Source of the DNA: Clostridiales bacterium
GTDB taxonomy: Bacteria; Bacillota; Clostridia; Christensenellales; Aristaeellaceae
Direction of reading: 5' to 3'
Length of the DNA: 64,000 nucleotides
Assembly (NCBI GenBank): GCA_015056245.1
Contig: SVGQ01000001.1
Location: 62,001-126,000, forward strand
The position numbers were made by a program, and so were the translations under genes. The stretch's first letter is position 1. Every line of letters starts with the position of its first letter. The notes beneath the pieces are model-generated. The model had not been told where the DNA came from. It made no database searches and saw nothing but the letters and a program-made list of their open reading frames with translations. Shown in pieces: positions 4,080-50,215 of this stretch.

Positions 4080-4112
4080 AACCGTCCTGCTGCATGCGTC
4101 AGCAGGACGGCT
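4080..4112 (+). repeat. Left flanking direct repeat (33 bp) of hairpin-array element copy 1; contains the GH9-gene terminator hairpin
   Basis: AACCGTCCTGCTGCATGCGTCAGCAGGACGGCT; identical to 4276-4308; 11-bp stem CCGTCCTGCTG/CAGCAGGACGG. Confidence 0.9.
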
Positions 4113-4275
4113 CAGGTTGTCAAAAAAGGGGAAGGTGCAGGAAACTCAGTTTCCTGCCGGGTGTGGGCAGAGCCCACAAAACCTTGCGCCGCAGCGCTTT
4201 TCAGCAAGCACAGCGAGCACCGTAGGTGCAAGATGTGCGACTTTTGAACAGAAGTATGGGTTTTTCGACAGTCTG
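4113..4275 (+). mobile_element. 163-bp MITE-like hairpin-array element, copy 1
   Basis: Starts CAGGTTGTCAAAAAAG, ends TTTTTCGACAGTCTG (imperfect TIRs, 12/15). Matches the reverse complement of 50053-50215 at every base; flanked by a 33-bp direct repeat. Confidence 0.85.
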
Positions 4276-4308
4276 AACCGTCCTGCTGCATGCGTCAGCA
4301 GGACGGCT
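4276..4308 (+). repeat. Right flanking direct repeat (33 bp) of element copy 1; terminator hairpin followed by T-run
   Basis: Exact copy of 4080-4112, followed by TTTATC. Confidence 0.9.
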
Positions 4309-26420: not shown

Positions 26421-27899
26421 TTATTGAGATTTCAGCGTGATGTTTTTGTCGGTATAGAAGGTTACAAAGCCTACGTTCGTCCAGAAAGTGGGATCCCAGT
26501 GGATGCCCGGGGAACCCAGCAGAGGGCTTTGCAGATCGAGGGAGGAGACCACTTCAGTTTCTTCAGTGGTCTGCAGCGTGTCTACCAGATCATCGTAGCT
26601 TTGGGCGTAGCGTTTGGAGTGCCCCTGCACCAGATGGATCGCGGCTTTCAGGGGAGCGTATTCGCTGGTGACACGGAAGGGGGAAAGCGTCAGTGTGGTT
26701 TCAAAAACAGCAGCGAAGATCAGCGCAAAAGCCAGAACAAAAGCGATGGTCTTGTTCAGGCTGAACAGGTCGCCTTTCTGATAGACAGCGGACAGCCCCT
26801 GCGCGATCCAGACAACCAGCAGCGCTTCGTTAATGAACAGGAGTACAGTAAAGTGCAGAAACACCATGTTGTCGTGGCGGTCAAGGATGGGATAGGAGGA
26901 AAAGATCAACGGAAAGAAGGCGGCAGCAAGCACGCAGACTGAGCCAACGGGAACAAGGAACCAGTACTTGGGCAGCTTGGGAACATACTGGCTCAAACGC
27001 GCGAAGACGGGCAGCAGCAGGATGCCAAAGAAATAATACCGGCCTTCATGAGTGCAGGTCTGAATGGCATTGAGGAATGAATTCACAAAAGATTCGAACA
27101 GAGGCAGTCTTTCGCCCACCACCGCCTGACGGTTAGCGTTTCCGGGAGCCAAAATCGCGACCATGTAGCCGATCAGCAAAAATAGGAACGGAAGCAGAAA
27201 ACGCAGGGATTTTTTTCGGGCAATGATATAAATGGCAAGAAAACCATACACCACAATGGACAGGGTAGGGGTCATCCAGTTGGCGCCGCCCAGAAGGAAG
27301 AAACCAATGCAGCTGAAGAAAAGGCCGATGCAGTTCTTGAAGGTCGCAGGCCGGTTGGCGGCAACCGCCTGAAAGAGGCAGGCAAAGAGCAGCAGGCTCA
27401 GCGCAAAGTAAAAAGTATAGTTGACAGCGCCGCTGTACCAGTAAATGCCGCCGGAAATATCAGGCATGGTCGTAATCAGCGCAATACTGAGCAATGCGGC
27501 GATCAGATGGATATAGGCACGGGGAATACCGGCGTTGATGATCCACAGGCATTTAGCAGCCTTATAGCTGGCGAAAATCATCAGGGCGATCACCAGAACA
27601 GGGTGAATAAAGCCGTAGGTATAGTTGAAGATATAGGGGGCGAATACGGACAGGAACATGGAGGAAAAAATGCCGTTGCGCGCATGCCAGATGCTGATGG
27701 TTTCTTTGATGGATGCGACAAAGGCCTGCCAGAACGAGCCGGTTTCCCGGTAAGTTACCGTAGGGGCGTACGGCTGGACAAGATCGTCTGCAATGGGGCG
27801 GTTATAGATGGATGTGATCAGCAGCGGAAGGATCAGAATGATCAATGCTGTAATGGCAAGGATCGATAATGTCTGGACAGAAATCGTACGCTTTTTCAT
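26421..27899 (-). CDS. DUF6056-like polytopic membrane protein
   Basis: Many TM segments; N-terminal ITSIYNRPIADDL pattern typical of this family. Confidence 0.7.
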   Translation of the reverse strand: MKKRTISVQTLSILAITALIILILPLLITSIYNRPIADDLVQPYAPTVTYRETGSFWQAFVASIKETISIWHARNGIFSSMFLSVFAPYIFNYTYGFIHPVLVIALMIFASYKAAKCLWIINAGIPRAYIHLIAALLSIALITTMPDISGGIYWYSGAVNYTFYFALSLLLFACLFQAVAANRPATFKNCIGLFFSCIGFFLLGGANWMTPTLSIVVYGFLAIYIIARKKSLRFLLPFLFLLIGYMVAILAPGNANRQAVVGERLPLFESFVNSFLNAIQTCTHEGRYYFFGILLLPVFARLSQYVPKLPKYWFLVPVGSVCVLAAAFFPLIFSSYPILDRHDNMVFLHFTVLLFINEALLVVWIAQGLSAVYQKGDLFSLNKTIAFVLAFALIFAAVFETTLTLSPFRVTSEYAPLKAAIHLVQGHSKRYAQSYDDLVDTLQTTEETEVVSSLDLQSPLLGSPGIHWDPTFWTNVGFVTFYTDKNITLKSQ

Positions 27900-27936: not shown

Positions 27937-27951
27937 CAGTATACCATACTT
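27937..27951. repeat. Left 15-bp direct repeat flanking element copy 3
   Basis: CAGTATACCATACTT, identical to 28159-28173. Confidence 0.85.
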
Positions 27952-28158
27952 CAGCTCGTCAAAAAACTCGCCTACGGCGACTTTTTTGACGACTTTTGCA
28001 CCGTTTGCCTAGGAGCCTACGGCTCCCCGGGCGGCAAACGGTGATAGGAATCCCTTGCTACGCAAGGGTTCCGAAACCACCGTACACGCCGCTGGTTTCG
28101 GATTGGCAATCGGAGGGCTGCGGCCCTCCGATACCTCTGGGGCTTTTTCGACAGTCTG
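27952..28158 (+). mobile_element. 207-bp hairpin-array element, copy 3 (same ends, different internal cargo)
   Basis: CAGCTCGTCAAAAAA ... CTTTTTCGACAGTCTG; ends shared with the 163-bp element; exact 15-bp direct repeats abut both ends; at least five internal stem-loops. Confidence 0.8.
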
Positions 28159-28173
28159 CAGTATACCATACTT
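28159..28173. repeat. Right 15-bp direct repeat flanking element copy 3
   Basis: CAGTATACCATACTT. Confidence 0.85.
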
Positions 28174-28275
28174 TTGATTGATGTAAAACATTGCAAAAAG
28201 GAAGGCATGAATTGTAAAGGGGCATCATGTCCGGATAACATGACACCCCTTTGTTTATTTGCCAGCAAAAATGCT

Positions 28276-50052: not shown

Positions 50053-50215
50053 CAGACTGTCGAAAAACCCATACTTCTGTTCAAAAGTCGCACATCTTGC
50101 ACCTACGGTGCTCGCTGTGCTTGCTGAAAAGCGCTGCGGCGCAAGGTTTTGTGGGCTCTGCCCACACCCGGCAGGAAACTGAGTTTCCTGCACCTTCCCC
50201 TTTTTTGACAACCTG
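50053..50215 (-). mobile_element. 163-bp MITE-like hairpin-array element, copy 2
   Basis: Reverse complement matches 4113-4275 along its full length in my base-by-base reading. Confidence 0.88.

Follow-up and report, generated by a model that had tools for sequence, protein, structure and literature searches.

Each transposase is usually assumed to make target duplications of one characteristic length. Direct repeats in the IS1182 family range from 0 to 60 bp, and because of this spread curators may have had sight of single cases of hairpin duplication; a survey of an open-access library (with ISfinder and subscription papers outside its scope) did not turn up whole-hairpin duplication described as a rule. 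The papers on IS1272 and TnSha1 (PMC4923244; PMC5678879) both cite Siguier and colleagues, in a review from 2015, for the statement that some IS1182 members target palindromes. Two members of the family from staphylococci, IS1272 and TnSha1, insert into stem-loops, often terminators, that are chosen by structure and not by sequence (PMC5678879; PMC4923244). The target hairpin is deleted or replaced in the process and there is no duplication (PMC4923244; PMC5678879); duplication of the whole hairpin is drawn only as a hypothetical pathway in the IS1272 literature.

The two element families described here, A and B, resemble IS1272 and TnSha1 in using stem-loop targets that are often terminators, but at their targets the hairpin is duplicated, where IS1272 and TnSha1 lose it. 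They share long direct repeats of variable length with IS1549 and IS1634 (PMC2266710), whose transposases belong to a family other than IS1182 and have no match in the genome studied. Like the pneumococcal RUP, BOX and SPRITE elements and other bacterial MITEs, they are short, intergenic, structured and non-autonomous (PMC10969869); the part of that source drawn on here does not describe whole-hairpin target duplication for those elements. Finally, the IS1182-family insertion sequences of Clostridia (NF033551, for example locus L215) are like A and B in their ends, their hairpin target and the duplication of the whole hairpin, and differ in carrying a transposase gene (about 1.5-1.6 kb), which A and B lack.

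The element at 27952-28158 and its families

The window analysed here is a 64,000-nucleotide stretch from a Clostridiales bacterium. Within it, the 207-bp segment at 27952-28158 (plus strand) is a parasitic, non-autonomous transposable element (MITE, family B), as judged from its ends, copies, fold and covariation. The left end is CAGCTCGTCAAAAAA (27952-27966, plus strand) and the right end is CAGACTGTCGAAAAA as read on the minus strand (28144-28158). Exact 15-bp direct repeats of CAGTATACCATACTT, containing the hairpin AGTAT-ACC-ATACT, adjoin the element on the left (27937-27951) and right (28159-28173). The coordinates, the ends and the repeats are as an earlier, sequence-only reading of the window had described them. 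The window also holds two 163-bp elements of family A, at 4113-4275 (plus strand) and 50053-50215 (minus strand), which are identical in sequence. On either side of the first lies an exact 33-bp repeat made up of an entire terminator-like hairpin (left copy 4080-4112, right copy 4276-4308), and the orthologous site of this element is empty in a related genome (L321 in G001); the second has 35-bp hairpin copies on both sides, with 2 mismatches. The ends of A and B, CAGNNNGTCRAAAAA, are inverted and of the transposase type. Matches to the end motif number 5 in the window against 0.40 expected from dinucleotide shuffles, none of which reached 5, and a second scan of the window gave 6 against 0.32 expected (again, no shuffle reached 6). 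Read outward, the left end of A, TTTTTTGACAACCTG (4113-4127 and 50201-50215), contains a consensus -35, TTGACA, and could form hybrid promoters with flanking sequence.

The families extend well beyond the window. The genome assembly comprises 3.1 Mb in 189 contigs, is 81% complete and is broken at repeats. It contains at least 126 exact matches to the general end motif, 68 matches to the right end with at most 1 mismatch, and at least 52 distinct complete copies belonging to A and B; the complete copies were counted from stretches around end-pattern matches, so further copies are possible. Among the matches listed, a further 52 ends with family-like interiors lie outside complete copies, many of them at contig edges. 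Family A is mostly 163 bp with longer forms of 280-308 bp, and family B mostly 207 bp with longer forms of 303-304 bp. The 163-bp A copies have a mean pairwise identity of 97.8%, the 207-bp B copies one of 92.6%. The length of 163-308 bp, inverted ends, dispersed copies, target duplications and empty sites are those of MITEs, and both families are too short for a transposase gene and carry none. The two can also meet: at one locus (L017) A and B sit side by side on one terminator, and at another (L098:815-1085) A adjoins a hairpin inside a B element that has lost its left part, which is a nested insertion of A in B with loss of the neighbouring part.

The sequence-only reading had proposed a modular family with conserved ends around interchangeable structured cargo. 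Much of this stands, namely the conserved ends, the different interiors, their recurrence, the footprints of transposition and the structure of B. As it had maintained, the interior of B is unrelated to that of the 163-bp A (the longest common word outside the ends is 9 nt, the chance level); the same ends recur with other interiors in this genome and in relatives, and nearly all complete copies are flanked by direct repeats, so that the refutation proposed in that reading fails. The idea of interchangeable cargo is not supported: the ends match terminal inverted repeats of the IS1182 type, and the interiors of A and B are those of ordinary MITEs, unrelated to each other. No exchange of cargo was seen among the copies found.

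Duplication of the whole target hairpin

The most unusual feature of these elements, missed in the earlier reading, is that the whole hairpin is duplicated. What flanks an element is a copy of the entire target hairpin, and the duplication is therefore as long as that hairpin and not of one set size. Among the copies found in this genome, direct repeats of 15-47 bp (median 29) flank 46 of the 52 complete copies, and 24 are exact. The repeats have a mean stem-loop score of 10.2, compared with 4.2 for shuffled sequence and 4.0 for flanking windows, and in 41 copies the score beats all 60 shuffles. Repeat length correlates with hairpin length (r = 0.91), and the edges of the two mostly coincide. 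A hairpin adjoins 90% of complete-copy junctions against 2.2% of random positions and, among the matches listed, 43 of the 52 ends lying outside complete copies. The common left junction noticed earlier, CT(T)|CAG, is explained in the same way, because the element abuts the hairpin foot, where the basal pair is usually A-T.

The target hairpins have no obvious sequence in common: those flanking one element are identical or nearly so, and those at different sites differ. Most look like terminators, since A-runs precede and T-runs follow them. The A- and T-tracts beside the hairpins are nearly balanced (4.7 A before and 5.3 T after, of 9) and give no support for a preferred orientation of the elements relative to the terminator; the differences between hairpin copies give none for selection, with 6 of 72 mismatches in pairs changed on both sides, while the one-sided mismatches comprise 17 that keep the pair and 17 that break it. 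Position relative to gene ends, as judged from ORFs, was set aside, the open frames at junctions being spurious. In this genome, the repeats of two copies (L080:804-1106 and L005:1208-1515) are just 6 bp long; the right-hand one at L080 corresponds to the final 6 bases of the hairpin on the left and looks like a truncated copy of it.

The site of the element at 27952-28158 has a short target hairpin, AGTAT-ACC-ATACT, with a 5-bp stem, which is not a clear terminator. A predicted sigma-70-like promoter (minus strand, 28160-28187; TTTACA, 16 nt, TATACT, with an extended -10) overlaps this 15-bp target and lies upstream of the minus-strand ORF at 26421-27899; after the insertion the copy of the -10 on the ORF side is without its predicted -35. 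A terminator-like hairpin lies 45 bp further right, at 28218-28252, yet the smaller palindrome served as target; the larger hairpin was read from the sequence and not flagged by the scan. No empty site for this insertion was found in relatives, where only the neighbouring coding stretch is conserved.

IS1182-family transposons carry matching ends

Terminal inverted repeats that correspond to the ends of A and B are found on IS1182-family transposons of the same genus and family; matching ends occur at L194/L215, L332, L180 and many of L215-L294. Within the genus, one locus (L180) has IS1182-family transposase sequence inside matching ends and another (L332) an IS1182-family transposase with an internal stop codon inside matching ends; both lie next to a hairpin. 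A complete element of 1503 bp occurs in Eubacteriales bacterium OttesenSCG-928-N13 (L194/L215), with an intact 449-aa transposase scoring 409.9 bits against the IS1182-family cut-off of 270, ends CAGCCTGTCAAAAAAG and CAGCCTGTCAAAGAAG, and a 20-bp hairpin repeat. A further IS1182-family element of the genus (L330 in G012) has ends of the type AGGGAGTGTCTCAAAA and flanks with neither repeat nor hairpin.

The hairpin rule recurs in two further sets. It holds for 39 of 40 copies, with various interiors, in ten further genomes belonging to the genus and family (G002, G005, G006, G007, G009, G014, G022, G030, G033 and G036), with r = 0.97. In a set of 57 full-length IS1182 elements, all from other genomes and most of these clostridial, 31 have repeats, 29 of them exact, and r = 0.95. 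The repeat is absent in the other 26, some of which end at a contig edge; most of those with usable flanks have two different hairpins, which we read as recombination or mis-assembly between copies. In the present genome, the right hairpin at L085 equals the left hairpin at L027, and the hairpin that adjoins the end at L067:126 on its outer side matches the left one at L085. A more distant copy on a Bacillus cereus plasmid (40% identity) has a 32-bp hairpin repeat. At about 26% identity, ISCfr1 and Sinorhizobium members (L351, L353 and L355) have only short repeats (CGGCCG at ISCfr1), and target products are thus variable within the IS1182 family.

Since the repeats of IS1549 and IS1634 span 8-514 bp with no known structural cause (PMC2266710), one could suppose that A and B also arise through a long stagger made by a fixed mechanism, with terminator regions merely preferred and the agreement with hairpins secondary. 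Against this, hairpin and repeat edges mostly coincide, and three independent sets each show a correlation of the two lengths, of 0.91-0.97; such a mechanism is quite improbable here.

The IS1182 loci in relatives came from a search with PF13751. Within the 81% complete, repeat-broken assembly of the present genome, there was no match to an IS1182 transposase, nor to PF01609 or PF13751. IS1634, known for its long repeats, was considered as a partner and rejected, its transposase (NF033559) having no match in this genome. A and B are most likely moved in trans by an IS1182-type transposase; the link to one particular transposase is one that we infer.

The folded structure of family B

Every stem listed in the sequence-only reading is present in the predicted minimum-energy fold of B, which has z = -8.3 (z = -9.1 for the other strand). 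The left end is palindromic (27956-27992) and includes an inner stem-loop at 27968-27980 that is terminator-like in both directions, because T-runs follow it on both strands. Across 20 copies of B, 91.6% of pair cells are standard pairs. Cells changed on both sides of a pair number 24, against 7.4 in shuffles and 0 to 2 in slid structures; 5 pairs have two-sided change against 3.0 expected, a number reached by 24 of 500 shuffles, which ignore kinship among copies. The support given by the fold and covariation check proposed in the earlier reading is thus moderate, and it is for real hairpins in B, not for an RNA function.

The strong folding of B on both strands, together with these paired changes, might suggest that the elements persist because they function as structured RNAs or regulators, with ends that serve that role more than transposition. 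This is even less probable than a fixed stagger: the elements have target duplications, longer and shorter forms and matching full-length transposons, their dispersed copies are nearly identical (97.8% for A), the predicted fold of A is of modest strength (z = -2.6), and no Rfam model matches within the window at its gathering score.

Empty sites and tandem arrays

To find sites before insertion, occupied sites were joined across the element and searched in the genus. Five orthologous empty sites were found (L301, L312, L321 and L327 in G001, and L328 in G011), each with one hairpin. At L312 the hairpin is nearly the same as at the occupied site; the other four have diverged in sequence and kept a hairpin. 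The least probable alternative, replacement of the kind published for IS1272 and TnSha1 of the same transposase family (PMC5678879; PMC4923244), in which the target hairpin is removed without duplication and both flanking hairpins existed beforehand, is contradicted by these single-hairpin sites and by flanking hairpins that agree within a site and differ between sites.

In one of the related genomes, a locus (L137:1493-2224) has four tandem copies with the same 26-bp hairpin between them, a layout like that of a repeat-spacer array. The copies are about as similar to one another as to other copies in that genome, so that reinsertion is a possible origin of the array; unequal crossing-over is also possible.

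A proposed structure-guided mechanism

Very probably, then, the element at 27952-28158 is a MITE moved in trans by an IS1182-family DDE transposase that chooses a target hairpin by its structure and leaves one hairpin on each side. The basis for this is the sequence independence of the hairpin targets, the duplication of whole hairpins, the dependence on length, the single-hairpin empty sites and the full-length IS1182 elements with matching ends and a like footprint. Counting against it are the missing match to an IS1182 transposase in the incomplete assembly, the lack of an empty site for this insertion, its short hairpin that is no clear terminator, and the full-length elements without a repeat. 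The transposase would recognise the ends CAGNNNGTCRAAAAA and insert at short palindromes that can form hairpins, mostly intrinsic terminators; both this kind of target and the product, an element with one whole hairpin on each side, are seen in the data. Insertion would take place at the feet of the extruded hairpin and be followed by gap repair, with extrusion and strand polarity as presumed steps. Because each insertion yields two hairpins, the target would be regenerated, and tandem arrays of hairpins and elements may follow. Terminators may tolerate such insertions, since the outer T-tract survives and B itself supplies a two-way terminator. The present data fit the hypothetical duplication pathway drawn for IS1272.

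A broader proposal, which we consider rather likely, is that one clade of IS1182 transposons, together with its MITEs, recognises DNA by its secondary structure. The hairpin, once extruded, would serve as the target and be cut at its feet, one on each strand, and repair would then duplicate it. IS1272 would be the mirror image, cutting at the opposite feet and losing the hairpin.

Implications

If these transposases do read structure, duplication length equals hairpin length, and each insertion makes a second target, so that hairpin-element arrays can grow by reinsertion. A duplication length that follows hairpin size speaks for a transposase able to sense DNA structure in living cells, and A, B and their relatives supply many natural examples of an outcome drawn for IS1272 and not observed in the IS1272 literature covered here. 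Searches that expect short, fixed duplications may overlook hairpin-duplicating elements. The copying of terminators may affect neighbouring genes. Cruciform-directed transposition becomes testable with these elements, and their copies may mark where hairpins form in vivo.
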